Shown here: piece after piece, positions 33,054 to 58,655 of the stretch
Layout of the letters: each line of letters begins with the position of its first letter
How positions within the stretch are numbered: the first letter of the stretch is position 1
Assembly (NCBI RefSeq): GCF_000313135.1
Contig: NW_004457545.1
Span: 30,684-94,683, forward strand
DNA length: 64,000 nucleotides
From: Acanthamoeba castellanii str. Neff
Taxonomy: Eukaryota > Discosea > Longamoebia > Acanthamoebidae
Reading direction: 5' to 3'
Made by a program: the position numbers and the translations under genes
Notes under the pieces: model-generated
Database searches by the model: none
The model's input: only the letters and a program-made list of their open reading frames with translations
Told to the model about the DNA's origin: nothing

Positions 33054-34157
33054 ATGAAGAATTCCGAGGTAGCCACTCAGGCCCAACAACAATGCAATCA
33101 GCGAAGGCCACACACCAAGATGGAGCAGGTGCCGGACGAGGTACTGTTGCACATCTTGGAGTGCTTGGGCAATGAAAAGGACTTGGCCCGCTGCTGCCAG
33201 GTCTCGTGGCGCTGGTACGCCATAGGTTCGGACTGTGACCTTTGGGCACCCCTCTTCGTCCGTCGATTTGGTCGATCACCCAACGCCGAGCGCAAAGATC
33301 AGGGGCTCATCGTCAAAATGCAATTCATGATGGTTCTCCCTCCCCTTCACTTCTTCTGTGTCCCCTCTTGCGTTAACTGTGGCAGGGGGCAGGAAGTGGA
33401 AAGCCTCAAGGAGGAGAAGATACGGCAGGCCATTGAAGAGCACAACATGAGGATTGAGCGATGGAAGAAGGGCAGCAACCACAACCCCATGTACTCGCCC
33501 CTTCACCTTGCAAGCTTCTTGCTTCTGCGCCTCACTCGCTGTTCGGTTCAGCGCGATGCACAGCGAGCTGTTGCCCGTACTCAAATACCGCGACGGAGAG
33601 CTGCAGGAGGTGTCCTTCATCACAGGTCTGTCTTCGGCGCCCAAACCGACACGCGTGCGAGTGTGTCTGGCGTGTTGCTTACTCACTGTGGGTCTTGCTT
33701 GATGGTAGCCAAGCACATGTGGGGCCTTCTCGCCTGGTTTGTTCCTGTGGGGGTGGCCTGTAGCGTGGGTGCCCGGCCAGCTCTTGTTGCGACCGTCCTG
33801 GTGCTTACACCTCTTTTATTCGCTGCCCTGGCGTGGTTGTGTTTGCCGCCTCCGCTCACATGGCATCGGTCTGTCGCGCAGTGTTCCCTGACGCGCTACT
33901 ACACTTACGATGCGTACTACGACGAGGCGAAGCTGCAGCCCAGGCCCAACAAAGATAGGCTGCGCTCGGTCGCGAAGTGCCTCATCTCTGGTACGACACA
34001 TCAACACCACGTGTTCGCCTTTCTGCTTCGCACCATCATGACACTCCCTACAGGCATCGCCGTGTGCGCTGGGGCCGCAATGCTGGGCTGGGCATCGGGC
34101 GCCGGTGTGCGCGCATCGATCGACAAGTCTATCCAGACCATCATCGGCTCCGCGTAG
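33054..34157 (+). CDS. F-box protein with hydrophobic C-terminal half
   Basis: The N-terminal F-box MEQVPDEVLLHILECLGN, continuing CCQVSWRWYAIGSD, would recruit Skp1 in an SCF ubiquitin ligase. A charged coiled segment (VESLKEEKIRQAIEEHNMRI) follows, then hydrophobic stretches (MWGLLAWFVPVGVAC, ATVLVLTPLLFAALAWL) and a C-terminal glycine/alanine-rich helix (IAVCAGAAMLGWASGAG). Several introns break the frame (around 33328-33386, 33495-33545, 33624-33710, 33840-33880 and 33990-34055). The start may be 33054 (MKNSEVATQ) or the internal Met at 33120, which begins the F-box directly. If the hydrophobic exons are translated, this is a membrane F-box protein, which is unusual. The tRNA-Ala begins 36 bp upstream on the other strand. 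Confidence 0.72.
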   Translation: MKNSEVATQAQQQCNQRRPHTKMEQVPDEVLLHILECLGNEKDLARCCQVSWRWYAIGSDCDLWAPLFVRRFGRSPNAERKDQGLIVKMQFMMVLPPLHFFCVPSCVNCGRGQEVESLKEEKIRQAIEEHNMRIERWKKGSNHNPMYSPLHLASFLLLRLTRCSVQRDAQRAVARTQIPRRRAAGGVLHHRSVFGAQTDTRASVSGVLLTHCGSCLMVAKHMWGLLAWFVPVGVACSVGARPALVATVLVLTPLLFAALAWLCLPPPLTWHRSVAQCSLTRYYTYDAYYDEAKLQPRPNKDRLRSVAKCLISGTTHQHHVFAFLLRTIMTLPTGIAVCAGAAMLGWASGAGVRASIDKSIQTIIGSA

Positions 34158-41202: not shown

Positions 41203-41786
41203 GCTGTGTACATAGATGTCGGCATTAATCAACGGAACAGCACACACGCACACACGACACACACGCTTCGAAGGCGTAAGCAATGGGGTGTTGTTGGGCA
41301 CTCGAACTGCTGGGGCAAGCGGTTGGTGTGTTGATGGGAGTGTAGCTTAGTGGCAAAGCGGAACGGCAAACACCATCTCACGTGGGTTCGATTCCCGCCG
41401 CTCCCGAACCACTCACCTTTCCTTTGTCGCCCTACGGCATCGGCGAGTGCCTCTACGAAGTGGCTCGGTGCTCGGCAACACGGCCCAGCAGCGGGAGGGA
41501 CGTGACCGCCTTCGGCTACTGCTTCTCGCCCTCGATTACCCTCAAGAGTTGTAATCACTCTGAAATCAAGCTCCAGTAGCCACACGAATGTTAAGGTGGC
41601 TATTTTCGCACCCGTGGCCTGACCACCTTAAAAATATGCGTCTGCGCACATGGACCCAGCCTTCTCTTGTTGGGGATTATTGCGCCCGGTCGGCGATTGG
41701 TGGGATTCGGCGGTTTTTTTTTTCAAAACAAACCACCACGATAAAGGCAACCCATCTTCAAGACAAGACACACAACCGCACAGCGG
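41203..41786. other. Intergenic 580 bp with a tRNA-like element
   Basis: Apart from the tRNA-like sequence at 41336-41406 and CA-rich DNA at 41240-41270, nothing is recognised. Short T and C runs at 41710-41730 and 41870-41880 lie near the start of the next gene. Confidence 0.55.
41336..41406 (+). pseudogene. Degenerate tRNA-like sequence with intact A and B boxes
   Basis: The acceptor stem is complete (GGGAGTG pairs with CGCTCCC), the D stem GCTT/AAGC forms, the A box is TAGCTTAGTGG, the B box is GGTTCGATTCC, and the T stem GTGGG/CCCGC forms. The spacing is that of a normal tRNA, but the anticodon arm is poor: two of five pairs fail, and the seven-base loop GCAAACA lacks the invariant T33. 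No TTTT terminator follows within 30 bp. It is most likely a tRNA pseudogene or tRNA-derived element, not a decoding tRNA. Confidence 0.65.
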
Positions 41787-43855
41787 ATGGAAGCTCCCGA
41801 CCGTCTTCAGTGCACCGACGTACGCTTTTTCCCCTGTGTGATTTGCTTCTCGGATTTGATGAAAAATCTCTTTTTTTTTCAAGCATCAAATCGCTGACGG
41901 GGGGCTGGCTCGCAGGTCGGTGCGCTGGCAGAGCGGCTGCGGGACCCCCAGAAGGGGGTGTCGGTCCAAGACAGGCGCTACTTCTTTCGCACCTACCCCA
42001 AGACCTTTGTCGGTAAGCCCAAGCCTCAACCACGTTCCTAAGTAGCAGAAGAAGGAGAGTGACCCTCTCAACACGCGCGTTGTGTCCAGGCTCTGAAATG
42101 GTGGACTGGGTCTACACCAACGTGGTGGGCCTACGCAGGCGCAAGGACGCGGTCGAGATATGCCAGCAGCTGATGGACACTGTACACACCCGCCTCCTTC
42201 TTTTGCTGACGGTGGACCACAGCACATAGTGCTGACTTCGTCGTGCAGGGTCTCTTCCGTCCGGTCAGCAGCCGCAGGCAGGGCAAGCCCTTCTATGATG
42301 CGTCGGTCCTGTACCGCTTCACGGTACGTACCCACACACATGGGCGCTCTGCCTGCATTGTGCGTTTTCGTGCGTACTTGGAAGACGCCCAAGCGTTTAA
42401 CGCTTTGCTGGCGTGTCGCGCTGCTCTAGGTGGACTTCACTGGCGGCGAGTGCGACGAAGATGAAGACGACAGCGACATTCTCGGGGAGAATAACAAGAT
42501 CTCGTCCGACCAGGTGCGCGCCTGGCTGACACCGCCGTCGAGCGTCATTTCATGCGCGTGCTAACTCGCCCCACCACTTCGTGTGCTTGGGGGGCTGCAG
42601 CTTGATGACGTCCTTGTGGCGTTCGCCAGCGGCATCGAAGTCAAGAAGAGGCGACACTTCTTGCGCTCGTATGACCACTGCTTTGTTGGTTCGTTTTTCC
42701 TCATCTTTTCTTTATCGGACGTCGTCACGAACCCGCTCACACCGTCGCCACCTGCAAACCTGCTCGACAGGCTCTGAGGCTACGGACTGGATCGTAGACA
42801 AGTTCAACGTCTCCCGCGTGCAAGCCGTCGAACTGGGCCAGAAAATGCTGGGCATGGTACGCTGTCGCCTCACACCTCAACCCCTGCTGGTCACCAGTTT
42901 GTTCAAACTCGATCGTGTGGCTCACCTTGCACTGTGCGCGGTGTGATTCCCAGGGCTTCTTCGAGCACGTCAGCGACCAGAACAAGCCCTTCGAAGACGC
43001 CAACGAGTTCTACCGCTTTGTGGACACCGAAGCGGCCGGACCGCAAGTCACCGAGAATACCACTCTGTACGACTTCAACGCTCTCGACATCGACAAGAAT
43101 CCGGTCTCGCTCAGCGAGTTCTCCGGTCGAGTGGTGCTGGTCGTCAACGTGGCATCGTTCTGAGGTTTGACCCCGAAGAACTATACGCAGCTTCAAGAGG
43201 TACGCTTCGCACGCCGTTCTTTCGCGCGGCTCGATATCACCCCGCTCTAGAACTAACGCGCTGCTTTCTCGCTACAGTTGGTGGAGACTCATGGAGCATC
43301 GGGATTCACCGTTCTGGGTTTCCCGTGCAATCAATTCGGCAAGTACGTTTCTCCCAGCCGCGCGGCCATGTGAGCGAGTGCCCCAGCGAGCGCACGTAGT
43401 TATGTCGGCACCGAGCGCGCGTTCACCTTTCTCTTTATTTGATGCTATATATCTTGAATGTAGGCAAGAGCCGGGCACGAACGATGAGATCAAGGAGTTC
43501 GTCAAGAAGTTCAACGTCACTTTCCCTCTGTTTGACAAGGTTAACGTGAATGGACCTCAGGCCCACCCGCTCTTCAAGTGGCTCAAGGACGAGTACGTTT
43601 CCACCCGCCCCCACCACGCCCACTGGCTCGTCTTGCATTGGGCTCACCTCACCTTCGCTGTTCGTTTGTCTGTCCGTCCGTATGTACACACTGTGTAGGC
43701 TCCCCGGATCCCTGGGCATCAAGGGCGTGAAGTGGAACTTCACCAAGTTCTTGATCAACAAGCAGGGAAAGCCTGTCCAGCGCTACGGCCCGCCGACCGA
43801 CCCCAAGTCCATCGAGAAGGACATCCTCACCCTGATGGAGAAGGACTCCCTCTAG
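41787..43855 (+). CDS. DEP-DEP-glutathione peroxidase fusion, selenocysteine at UGA 43161
   Basis: A short first exon (41787-41819, [11 protein letters not shown]) joins in phase 0 to exon 41916. Two DEP domains follow: [20 protein letters not shown] with [10 protein letters not shown], and [20 protein letters not shown] with [12 protein letters not shown] domains bind membranes or receptors. A complete GPx4-like glutathione peroxidase then begins [20 protein letters not shown] and runs [25 protein letters not shown], on to [15 protein letters not shown] and [15 protein letters not shown]. The TGA occupies the catalytic selenocysteine position; the Gln and Trp-Asn partners are present. The frame, splice phases and conservation continue unbroken for four exons after TGA, to a TAG at 43853-43855. 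A SECIS-like hairpin lies 84 bp downstream. It would reduce lipid or other hydroperoxides, perhaps at membranes. Confidence 0.92.
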
Positions 43856-43930
43856 GGCGCCAAGCTCGAGGAAGGGAAGCGGCGAGTCGGTGAGAGACGA
43901 GGCGAGGGACGGACCGTGACGAAGAAGAGT

Positions 43931-44000
43931 GCATGCGAATGAAGGCGCCTCCGGAAAACACAGCCCCAGATGCTCGTGTCGGTCGCGCCTGATAGGATAC
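43931..44000 (+). promoter_or_regulatory. SECIS element candidate in the 3' UTR
   Basis: The core is ATGA at 43939-43942 opposite TGAT at 43990-43993, giving the U.U, G.A, A.G kink-turn quartet. Helix II is 43943-43948 paired with 43985-43990, then a 2x2 internal loop, then CCG 43951-43953 with CGG 43980-43982. The unpaired AAA sits at 43955-43957, 12 nt after the quartet as expected. A small apical helix ACAC/GTGT (43958-43961 with 43976-43979) makes it form II. Helix I is weak. Confidence 0.82.
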
Positions 44001-44189
44001 GGAGCGATTCCAACCGTCGCTCCTTGCGCTCCTTCTCCGGCTCGTCTCCTCACCTCCCCTCACCCTCGCCCTCTCCCGCCCTTGCAGGCAAACCCCCTTT
44101 ACACTTCAAACCCTTTTTTTTCAATCTACATTTCAACTCAGCCTTGTGTGTTGAGTTTCGCGAAAAAGAAGAGAAACGTTGTCAGAAAG

Positions 44190-45077
44190 ATGGAAGTTGA
44201 AGATGTGCGGCTGGGGGCTGAACTCGAGCGGCTCACGGAGGGAGCCACGTGGTGCCGTGTCTCTGTTGGGTGCTCGGGTGCAGCGGTTTGGCATCTACAA
44301 CGACCGCTCTCTCCAACCACGGCCACTGCCGCGCCCCCTCTGCCGTCATCGACCTACCTCAAGATGGCCCCGGCTGGCACGCTGGCCGCTGACGTGGCGG
44401 TCATGCAGCTGCTGAAGTCTTGTGACGTACCAGCCCCACACGTGCTCCACTACGCCCAAGGCGGCGAAGGCCAGGCCGACTTCCTGCTCATCAGCGCACT
44501 GGCGGGCGTGCACGGCGCGACCGCTGAGGCCTTGTCTAGGCCCGAGGCGCTGGTGAGGAGCTTCGCCGGCGGCTTGCAAAGCCTTCACGGCCAGCACTCG
44601 ACGGCCCTCTTGCGCAGTGCTGAAGACCTGGGCGCCAAGTTCGACAGGCGGGTGGCGGTGCGAGTGGCCCGGGTGGAGCGGAGGCTGCGTGTGGGCGAGG
44701 TGCCCGGCCACGCAGAGCGGCTGGAGGCCATTCTAGCCCATGTCGCAAAACCGCCGCCCAACGTCGAATCCGATCTGGTGTTCACCCACGGCGACTACTG
44801 CCTGCCGAACGTCATCTTCCAGATCCTCAACAATCAGGCCGGTGAAACCGAGGCGGAGCTGCGAGTGGTCGGCTTCGTGGACCTGGGCTCGGCTGGCGTG
44901 GCCGATCGATACGTGGACCTGGCCAGCGCCGTGTGGAGCCTCAGATTCAACGGGTTGGAGAAACACGTCCCTGCCTTTCTGCAGTGCTACACCGCCAGGT
45001 CCGAGTTGTCGGGTCACAAGATCACCATCAACCAGGACAAGCTCGACTGGTACATCAACATGTTCACCCTGACCTGA
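44190..45077 (+). CDS. APH(3')-like aminoglycoside phosphotransferase-family kinase, intronless
   Basis: One exon of 295 residues. It has the Brenner-type motif of APH(3') kinases (FTHGDYCLPNVIF, with catalytic Asp and Asn) and the downstream metal-binding strand VVGFVDLGSAGVADRYVDLA, in which the AGVADRY block is typical of the kanamycin-kinase branch. The N-terminal lobe is plausible (YLKMAPAGTL with the ATP-lysine, then AADVAVMQLLKSCDVPAPHV). Such enzymes move ATP gamma-phosphate onto small-molecule hydroxyls; the substrate here is unknown, and resistance should not be assumed. The lack of introns beside intron-rich genes, together with the bacterial-type motif set, suggests transfer from bacteria. 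The frame is open upstream to 43929, but Met 44190 starts the conserved part. Confidence 0.88.
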   Translation: MEVEDVRLGAELERLTEGATWCRVSVGCSGAAVWHLQRPLSPTTATAAPPLPSSTYLKMAPAGTLAADVAVMQLLKSCDVPAPHVLHYAQGGEGQADFLLISALAGVHGATAEALSRPEALVRSFAGGLQSLHGQHSTALLRSAEDLGAKFDRRVAVRVARVERRLRVGEVPGHAERLEAILAHVAKPPPNVESDLVFTHGDYCLPNVIFQILNNQAGETEAELRVVGFVDLGSAGVADRYVDLASAVWSLRFNGLEKHVPAFLQCYTARSELSGHKITINQDKLDWYINMFTLT

Positions 45078-45280
45078 ACCCAAAAACGCGTTTAGGAGAG
45101 CATCGCTTTTCTTTCGCTTTTCTTCTCGCTTCATTTTTTTGCTTTTCTTTCTTCACTCCGCCAAATTACTTTGGGTGCAATGGCACTTTTCACTTCAACC
45201 CCCCCCCGTCACAGTGCCTCTACCGCAAGCTATCCCCTTCTCCACCTCCAGCACACCAACAAGTGTACACTTAAAAGACA

Positions 45281-45955
45281 ATGGCTAACCAGCAGAAGGA
45301 GAACGAACCGGCGGTGGACGTGTACATTCTGCTAGAGGGCATTAAGGGTCCCGTCACCGAGCCCGGGCACGAGGGCTGGATCAAGGGCCTGTCGGCGCAG
45401 TTCGGCGTGGGCCTCGCTGTGGGCGGCCGCAACCGCCGCTACCGCCGCAACCAGACGCCCGAGCAGCTCGAGGCCGAGCGCAAGAAGAAGGAGGACGAGG
45501 AAGCCGAGGCCAAGGCCGCCGAGGAGCGGGGCGAGACCGAGGAGGAGGCCTGGGAGCGCAAGGTCAGGTCCAGCGTCAACTGCTCGTCGCCGTCGGTGAG
45601 CGAGATCACCGTGACCAAGGAGAGCGACGCCGCGTCGCCGGTGGTCTTCCACCACACGGTCCTGCGCAAGCCCGTGCGCCGGGCCGTGGTGGAGGTGGTC
45701 CAGCGCTCGGACAAGGCGACCACCCGCTTCGAGATGGACACTGTTTTTATTTCAGGCTTCTCGCTCTCGATCGGCCGCAATAACAGGCCGCAGGAGTCGA
45801 TGTCGCTCAACTTCCAGAGCATCACCTTCGGCGTGCGGATCGGGGAGCAGGCCACGACGAGCGGGTACGACCTGACCGACGAGGTGGTGTCTCTCAATGG
45901 TGAGCCGTCCAAGCCCTTCTGGGAGAAGAAGGACGGTGACGACAATGACTACTGA
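45281..45955 (+). CDS. Hcp-like protein (type VI secretion tube-protein family), intronless
   Basis: One exon of 224 residues. It shows the Hcp fold pattern: VDVYILLEGIKGPVTEPGHE followed by GWIKGLSAQFGVG, the strand EITVTKESDAASPVVFHHTV, VRRAVVEVVQRSD, FISGFSLSIG and the closing strand SMSLNFQSITFGVR. A charged ~38-residue insertion (EQLEAERKKKEDEEAEAKAA region) separates the first strands from the rest and is not usual in bacterial Hcp. Bacterial Hcp stacks hexameric rings into the T6SS tube. In a eukaryotic genome its role is unknown. It lies 200 bp after the APH-like gene on the same strand, and both are intronless. An AATAAA follows at 45993. There is no signal peptide. Confidence 0.82.
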   Translation: MANQQKENEPAVDVYILLEGIKGPVTEPGHEGWIKGLSAQFGVGLAVGGRNRRYRRNQTPEQLEAERKKKEDEEAEAKAAEERGETEEEAWERKVRSSVNCSSPSVSEITVTKESDAASPVVFHHTVLRKPVRRAVVEVVQRSDKATTRFEMDTVFISGFSLSIGRNNRPQESMSLNFQSITFGVRIGEQATTSGYDLTDEVVSLNGEPSKPFWEKKDGDDNDY

Positions 45956-56930: not shown

Positions 56931-58655
56931 ATGGGAGGCAAGGGAAGCAAGGGCAAGGACGAAGCTGGGTCTGGCTCACGCGGGCCTCGGTTGCTGACCG
57001 AATTGGACCCCGGGGCGGAGGTGGAGGTGGTGAGCCAGCTGTCCGCGCTCGCCCTCCTCAAACAGGAGCTCGCCCAGCTGCAGGCGGCAGCAGAGGAGGT
57101 GCAGGCCGACCCGAGCACCAACAAGAAAAGTAAAAAGAAGAAGAACCCTTCGCTGCCCGCGAGCGGCCAGCAGCAGCGCCTGGCCACGCTGTCGCGCTAC
57201 ATTGGGACGTGGGCTGACGTGGCCCGAAAGCTGGAGGACAAAGTTCCCTCCGCCGCCCAACAAGAGAGCTCCCACTTCGCACGCATGCCGCCCGAGCTCG
57301 TCTGCGAGGTCCTCTCCTTCCTGGACTACGGTAAGCATCACCGCACACACGACCGCACACGCCGCACACACGAGTAATGGCTAATTGGGCTCGCGCACAG
57401 AGTCGCTGCTGGCGTTTGGGCAGACGAGCGTGTGGAGCTACGGCGCGGTGCACCACTCGAGCGGTGCCCTTGTGTCGGCCAAGCTGGTGGACCACGTACA
57501 CGCCGCCCGCGGCCCGGGCCTGGCCCACCTCCTCGGGCCGCTACCGCTAGAGGCCCCGCCCACCGCCGCCCGCCGGATCGCTTACAGCAGCGCCAGCAGC
57601 GCCAGCAGCCTCAGCGCATCGGTCTCCGACGTCAGCTCCGGTAGCGACGACGAAGACGGCGGCGACGCGGCGGCGGCCAAGGGCGGCGAGCCGCAGGCGG
57701 CCGAGACGCCATCGCGAGCGGCGATTGCAGCGCGTCTGTTGGTGGTGCCCGCGCTGCGGGACAAGGGCGCTTGGCTCACCCCGCGCGACGCGGAGATGTT
57801 CGAGGACGTGTTCGAGCCACGCGTGAGCCAAAACATGAAGGCCTTCGCCTCCGTGCGCACCTTCCGCATCCCCACAGCCCTCTACGCCTTCCGTACGCTT
57901 CTTTCTTTCTTGTGTGCGTGTCGTGTCGTACGTCGAGCGTGTGCCGCGTGCCGCGTGCCGTGCGCCGTGCGCCGTGTGCCGTAGTGGTGTATGTCGTTTG
58001 TGTCGTGTGCGCTCACCAAAGGGTGCAGGAGGCGGCGTGGGGGCAGCGATCGCGGAAGGACTGGCGAATGTCGAGGTGCAGCTGGCGAGCAACCGCAACG
58101 TGTGCCTCAACAGCGATGCGTGGACCCACCGTCCACTCCGATTCGGTCCCGAGCTCGTGCCCATCTCCTCGATCGAGCAGTTCGACGAAATGTTTCAGAG
58201 TACCACCGCATTGATGACGACGACGATGATGATGATTGTCGAGATCAGGCTGATTGTTTGTTTGTTTCCTTGGGGCAGGCTTGCGAGAGGTCAGGTGGCG
58301 CTCGACCGAGTTGGTAGCGCTGAACCTGCCCAGTGCCGGCGACGCGCTCAAGGCCGTGGCTCGATTGGCAGGCAGCCACGAGCTGCTCATGTGGAAGGAC
58401 ACCCAGTTCAAGGCACGCACCACCTTCGTCGTAGCCTTCGTCTTCTTCTTCTTATTCTTATTCTTATTCTTCTTCTTTTCCATTTGTTCTTTCACTCAAC
58501 AAGTGCGCACCAACCACGCACATCACCAGGGGAGCGGCCTCGGTGGCCACCGGTTCCTGGTGGTGGGCGGCGGTCAGGCGACCGTGGTGCAGTGGGAGTA
58601 CTACAGCAACTTCTGTGGTGGACCCTACGCCACCTACAGCTGCGGCATGGGCTGA
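56931..58655 (+). CDS. F-box-like protein with SUKH/unknown C-terminal region
   Basis: After a Gly/Lys/Ser leader and a helix rich in Leu/Gln (LSALALLKQELAQLQAAAEE), an F-box-like motif appears near residue 120: MPPELVCEVLSFLDY joined over an intron to ESLLAFGQTSVW. The remainder (ALRDKGAWLTPRDAEMFEDV, ELVALNLPSAGDALKAVARL, HRFLVVGGGQATVVQWEYYS) is not recognised; the SUKH suggestion is weak and rests only on overall look. Five exons. The last intron seems to use a GC donor (AAG/gcacgc at about 58414) and acceptor caccag before GGG AGC, since that keeps phase 0 and codon bias. The end is YATYSCGMG at 58655; AATAAA lies at 58830. Confidence 0.68.

Follow-up and report, generated by a model that had tools for sequence, protein, structure and literature searches.

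An Acanthamoeba castellanii gene that probably encodes a DEP-DEP-GPx selenoprotein read through UGA

The window, a 64 kb stretch of Acanthamoeba castellanii DNA that was analysed at its full length, contains a gene on the forward strand in which two DEP domains are followed by a glutathione peroxidase (GPx) domain and in which the reading frame crosses an in-frame TGA. Its features are:

41787..43855, forward strand: coding region of 11 exons and 383 residues, with Sec at 255 (splice model, GT-AG throughout)
41787-41819, 41916-42012, 42090-42181, 42249-42323, 42430-42513 and 42601-42688, forward strand: exons 1-6
42771-42856, 42954-43199, 43278-43342, 43464-43592 and 43699-43855, forward strand: exons 7-11
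41916..42323, forward strand: first DEP domain, exons 2-4, ends approximate
42631..43019, forward strand: second DEP domain, residues 138-207, exons 6-8
43065..43855, forward strand: GPX4-like peroxidase domain, residue 223 to the C-terminus, exons 8-11 (PF00255, 139.2 bits)
43161..43163, forward strand: in-frame TGA, codon 255, at the catalytic Sec/Cys site (Cys or Trp in aligned relatives)
43856..44189, forward strand: 3'UTR at its maximal length, if the next ORF begins at ATG 44190
43939..43992, forward strand: SECIS-like hairpin with an ATGA core, a 12-position helix with two mismatches, AAAA, an apical stem-loop and a 3' GA core (pattern scan, fold)

In the splice model the gene starts at the ATG at 41787 and closes with a TAG ending at 43855. 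The ten introns, each GT-AG and 67-121 nt long, leave a spliced CDS of 1152 nt that is in phase, and the TGA at 43161-43163, within [16 protein letters not shown], is its sole in-frame interruption. The sequence-only reading of this DNA had drawn the gene at these same coordinates, and its span and single internal TGA are upheld here, except that the gene should be extended to ~43995 so that the SECIS-like element is included. Some 380 nt upstream lies a tRNA-like gene (41336-41406, forward strand; Rfam tRNA, 43.7 bits) with an odd anticodon arm, to which ARAGORN assigns no clear anticodon.

The earlier claim of a fusion to two DEP domains is confirmed by both domain matching and exon structure. 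Pfam places DEP (PF00610) on two stretches of the protein (154.1 bits) and GSHPx on residues 223-330 (139.2 bits), and the DEP fold also occurs twice in a structure model of the relative P0001. A single exon, exon 8 (42954-43199), extends from the second DEP across a linker to beyond the GPx active site and is open except for the TGA; because it spans both parts, the fusion is a single gene and no splice guess is needed to join them. The two DEP units (41916-42323 and 42601-43019) have two intron places and phases in common, phase 1 ahead of the GSE stretch and phase 0 ahead of GLF/GFF, which points to internal duplication of a three-exon unit.

A selenoprotein would be expected to have its UGA in frame at a redox site and conserved sequence downstream, and this locus has both. 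GC3 is 0.803 over the 254 codons before the UGA and 0.805 over the 128 codons after it, against 0.516 and 0.320 in the two alternative frames of the latter part. Identity to the full-length relative P0002 is 109/205 (53%) over residues 1-212, 25/41 over residues 213-253 and 85/125 (68%) over residues 255-383, counting the U/W column as a mismatch. The sequence-only reading had placed the TGA at the selenocysteine site with conserved GPx sequence after it, and codon 255 does align with Cys or Trp in relatives. Beyond it, the best PDB sequence matches of the GPx domain, after de novo designs, are human GPX4 chains, with which Gln290, Trp344 and Asn345 align alongside Sec255, as the earlier reading had also proposed for Gln and Trp-Asn. 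We take these residues to be the catalytic set of GPX4, and the PF00255 domain of the window protein thus has all four columns (Sec, Gln, Trp and Asn) of a GPX4-like enzyme.

Relatives were collected with the full protein (781 proteins, best 120 examined), with a profile (7254, best 120 examined) and with residues 1-215, which matched 8 proteins in total. Four of these eight (P0001, P0003, P0005 and P0006; 254-256 aa, 58-82% identical) end exactly at NVASF, the Sec site, in agreement with the earlier expectation that automated gene models would stop at the UGA. Their frames are unbroken where the window gene has seven introns, from which we infer that they are cDNA-like, and their longest contigs, at 1357-1572 nt, have room for the remainder of a spliced message. 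These proteins are also what would be seen if the UGA were a true stop, giving a 254-residue tandem-DEP protein with the GPx exons as a decaying remnant or 3'UTR, and the standard reading of the window gene does end there. However, the part from the UGA onward is the best conserved against P0002, has the high GC3 given above and retains the catalytic residues along with three in-phase GT-AG introns, and the UGA falls precisely on the Sec codon. We therefore regard a true stop as highly improbable.

The residue at the catalytic site was compared across 198 of 216 rows, made up of 196 database proteins, the window protein and a Cys-GPx paralog on contig C189. The 18 rows left out were P0008 and those whose GPx part was unrecognisable or too short, including the four NVASF proteins. 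Cys occupies the site in 178 rows, Trp in 18 and Gly in one, and the UGA is that of the window. For 17 of the 18 W proteins every source bears the label jgi or lgn, which we take to mark metagenome assemblies, the remaining one being the plant gene model P0113. This restriction to particular sources fits a pipeline that reads UGA as Trp, and the W proteins of these sources are probably unrecognised Sec-GPx proteins translated with the pipeline's alternative code. Besides P0002 and P0113, Trp was seen at the site in P0012, P0014, P0016, P0018, P0023, P0037, P0038, P0048, P0121, P0122, P0127, P0146, P0151, P0166, P0170 and P0171.

At least nine further proteins combine DEP and GPx: P0007, P0010, P0011, P0019 and P0084 with Cys at the site, and P0002, P0012, P0018 and P0023 with W, most of the nine having a PH domain between DEP and GPx. 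Separately, a 653-aa protein, P0213, has in its Pfam listing a DEP joined to the mechanosensitive-channel domain PF00924. A resolving Cys was present in none of 17 scorable W forms (one unscorable) as against 106 of 153 scorable C forms (25 unscorable), a contrast with a Fisher p of 1.4e-8 when kinship is ignored. The window protein has none and groups with the W (presumed Sec) forms. However, the five Cys-bearing DEP fusions also have no resolving Cys, so its absence is partly a clade trait.

A tree of 67 of the 198 rows (25 core, 36 random and 6 named, rooted at the midpoint; the four NVASF proteins stand outside it) pairs the window protein with P0002 (99/87), beside P0013, a Balamuthia Cys-GPx without DEP annotation (99/85). 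A group of 33 rows (99/90) holds the window protein, all 11 fusion rows (counting P0014, which has PH only) and 17 of the 18 W rows, while P0113 and the C189 paralog fall outside it. The 11 fusion rows may share one origin, which the tree does not reject (p-AU 0.134), although the fewest changes needed on it is four.

Two alternatives bear directly on this comparison. The first is that the UGA arises from a sequencing or assembly error, or from a recent Cys-to-stop mutation, for which a single base would be enough in a genome that has a Cys-GPx elsewhere. But the stop position is shared by four relatives, P0002 has W there, the resolving Cys is absent and a SECIS-like hairpin is present, and we consider this explanation extremely unlikely. 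The second is general readthrough, in which UGA would give Trp or some other residue instead of Sec. The W shown at the site by relatives in the databases is what this predicts, yet 17 of the 18 such proteins come only from jgi or lgn sources, the other being the plant model P0113, and the genome has both the hairpin and dedicated Sec machinery. Trp is, moreover, not expected to perform peroxidase chemistry, and we give general readthrough very little credence.

The hairpin begins 83 nt past the stop, which is 470 nt past the UGA in the message. We scanned both strands of the window with the pattern [AG]TGA, 11-13 nt, AA, apical part, pairing strand, GA, obtaining four matches, of which the one at 43939 is the top-scoring match on the forward strand. 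When the 335-nt stretch 43856-44190 was shuffled with dinucleotides preserved, any match arose in 40 of 4000 shuffles and the candidate's score was reached in 0 of 4000. Of 382 blocks of 335 nt taken from the actual window sequence, counting both strands, 4 had a match and two reached the candidate's score, one of them being the candidate by place. Other loci of the genome, totalling 208,702 nt with both strands counted, some loci overlapping and eight loci excluded, gave eight matches, only one of which scored at least 21, the score of the element of a SelW-like gene. Folding predicts the helix together with an upper stem, the AAAA being left unpaired on the 5' side of the helix, and the layout resembles that of the SelW SECIS of the same genome (ATGA, 12 nt, AAA, GA). 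A pattern of equal score at 34039 on the reverse strand, beside which no selenoprotein was noticed, is probably due to chance.

Covariance searching gave a different answer. With E values of up to 5 allowed, Rfam SECIS_1 found no SECIS over 43000-45300; across the whole genome, with the limit at E 1, it matched once, at another locus, so that the hairpin at 43939 was missed. The SelW SECIS itself scores 28.3 bits, under the gathering score of 35. The folding energy of the hairpin region, compared with shuffles, gave a z of 0.04, that is, no extra stability. Thus the SECIS element to be looked for behind a gene of this kind is supported by pattern and shuffles, but not by the Rfam model.

Genes of the Sec machinery, on which the sequence-only reading depends, are present in the genome (38.4 Mb, 250 contigs searched). 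We found a tRNA-Sec with anticodon TCA (72.2 bits), SepSecS as eight pieces on C242, a SelD-like gene as five pieces on C161, each under the family cut-off, and eEFSec domain III on C73. Seven other matches to the tRNA-Sec model were under the cut-off at 42.8 bits; one of them was checked and is a tRNA-Ser. The SelD-like gene (C161:452995-453126, reverse strand) reads as Cys (GCGCK) at the usual Sec site, a position that in SPS2 is often occupied by Sec. The only genome-wide Rfam SECIS match (C122, 28.3 bits, E 0.031) lies behind the SelW-like gene, near 58000 on the minus strand, which reads MKVLVEYCNA-UGA-GRYAFFK..., has two introns and carries its SECIS ~40 nt past the stop. This gene was found by reading around the SECIS match, a Rdx family search of the genome for SelW-type genes having given no matches. 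Given the machinery genes and a SelW with both UGA and SECIS, we conclude that, to the extent that sequence can show it, this genome uses Sec decoding. A tRNA-Sec, Sec machinery and SECIS-bearing genes have been reported for A. castellanii in the accessible parts of PMC3521657 and PMC8038987.

Taken together, the gene is real and its protein is very probably a true selenoprotein; we put the probability of a Sec-decoded DEP-DEP-GPx peroxidase at about 0.88. Actual insertion of Sec at codon 255 is predicted with high confidence. The ribosome would meet the UGA at this codon, the 3'UTR hairpin at 43939-43992 would recruit Sec factors, and incorporation of selenocysteine would yield the 383-residue enzyme and not a 254-residue stub. 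It is likely that the product is a lipid hydroperoxidase, its GPx part acting like GPX4, with Sec255, Gln290, Trp344 and Asn345 reducing lipid hydroperoxides. Having no resolving Cys, the enzyme would rely for its regeneration on glutathione or a different thiol instead of the intramolecular disulfide of Hyr1-type enzymes. For the tandem DEP, the proposed role would most likely be to take the peroxidase to membranes, the site of its lipid substrates, through acidic lipids or G-protein-linked partners, although the odds on DEP-mediated membrane recruitment are about even.

Another way to view the DEP pair is as a regulatory module of the selenoprotein, binding TOR or G-proteins or serving as a scaffold, in place of membrane targeting of a lipid peroxidase. 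The tandem DEP of DEPTOR also contacts mTOR, according to the accessible portion of PMC8439649. The DEP folds matched by the P0001 model include those of RGS7 and Dvl2 in complex with partner proteins. Against this, the DEP-PH-GPx relatives add a second domain type, PH, and PH domains often bind lipids; GPX4-like enzymes, too, act on membrane lipids. Neither point is decisive, and we hold the regulatory role as a tentative alternative, somewhat doubtful yet deserving to be kept in view. There is also an unlikely further possibility, that the UGA is a selenium switch, giving a membrane-recruited GPX4-like lipid repair enzyme with selenium and a free tandem-DEP protein without it. If this were true, the stub, resembling the DEP pair of DEPTOR, would act on TOR or G-protein signalling, and selenium supply would feed directly into signalling at membranes or in growth, perhaps in a whole DEP/PH-GPx family spread through the protists.

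The Sec-decoded peroxidase, if right, would add a DEP-DEP-GPx selenoprotein architecture, with a GPX4-like enzyme tied to membrane or signalling domains in protists. A dependence of the lipid-peroxide defence of Acanthamoeba on selenium would become testable, and the gene suggests a way for such a family to stay hidden, with pipelines either ending proteins at UGA or calling Trp. The sequence-only reading knew of no described DEP-GPx selenoprotein, and we likewise found no description of one in the open-licence literature, in so far as its text was accessible; the domain pair itself, however, recurs in the nine or more public proteins listed above. The gene may already be in Table S3 of the supplement to PMC3521657 (2012), which is headed 'Putative selenoproteome in A. 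castellanii'. Algal selenoproteomes contain other fusions, of SELENOM with pVHL or ShKT, and the accessible text of PMC7539508 names none of the DEP-GPx kind. In our judgement the protein is a new domain variant of Sec-GPX4-like peroxidases, whose relatives are mostly hidden in metagenome sets.

The finding would also correct the statement that Acanthamoeba GPx is selenium-independent. The GPx of A. castellanii is reported as having no UGA and being independent of selenium in the accessible parts of PMC8038987 and PMC9083255, and both Gpx primers seen in the latter match the C189 locus (C189:313126-313552, reverse strand) exactly; we equate the published Gpx XM_004335951 with ACA1_365760, as the other paper calls it. 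The primer match and a profilin that differs from PDB 1acf, the profilin I of Acanthamoeba, at two of 125 aligned residues mark the genome as Acanthamoeba-like. The C189 gene encodes a PF00255 protein with both Cys and resolving Cys (EIQEFC), and the published statement fits this paralog only. Although this Hyr1-type Cys-GPx and the window gene belong to the same family and genome, they lie on different contigs, their intron places differ, and no DEP was seen in the paralog. A parallel in decoding is the TrxR-L of Acanthamoeba, with a UGA and a predicted 3'UTR SECIS (PMC8038987, accessible part), which is a selenoprotein like that of the window but an unrelated enzyme. Our genome search did not locate TrxR-L: the two TGR-family places that were translated read as glutathione-reductase-like, the SECIS pattern being absent at both.

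Among proteins of known structure, DEPTOR (7dkl, 7ped) also has a tandem DEP, and the window protein matches these chains at 89.2 and 88.9 bits. With 7dkl, 175 residues of the P0001 model are alignable over the DEP pair at an rmsd of 14, so that agreement in relative DEP pose is not established. DEPTOR ends in a PDZ, whereas a Pfam search of the window protein at E up to 0.01 found no PDZ; membership of the DEPTOR family was rejected, since GPx replaces PDZ after the tandem DEP. Human GPX4/PHGPx (2obi, 6hkq, 6elw), by contrast, is a single domain, to which the window protein adds two DEPs on the N-terminal side. Several of the DEP-(PH)-GPx proteins of public sets have a central PH, whereas the window protein has the order DEP-DEP-GPx.
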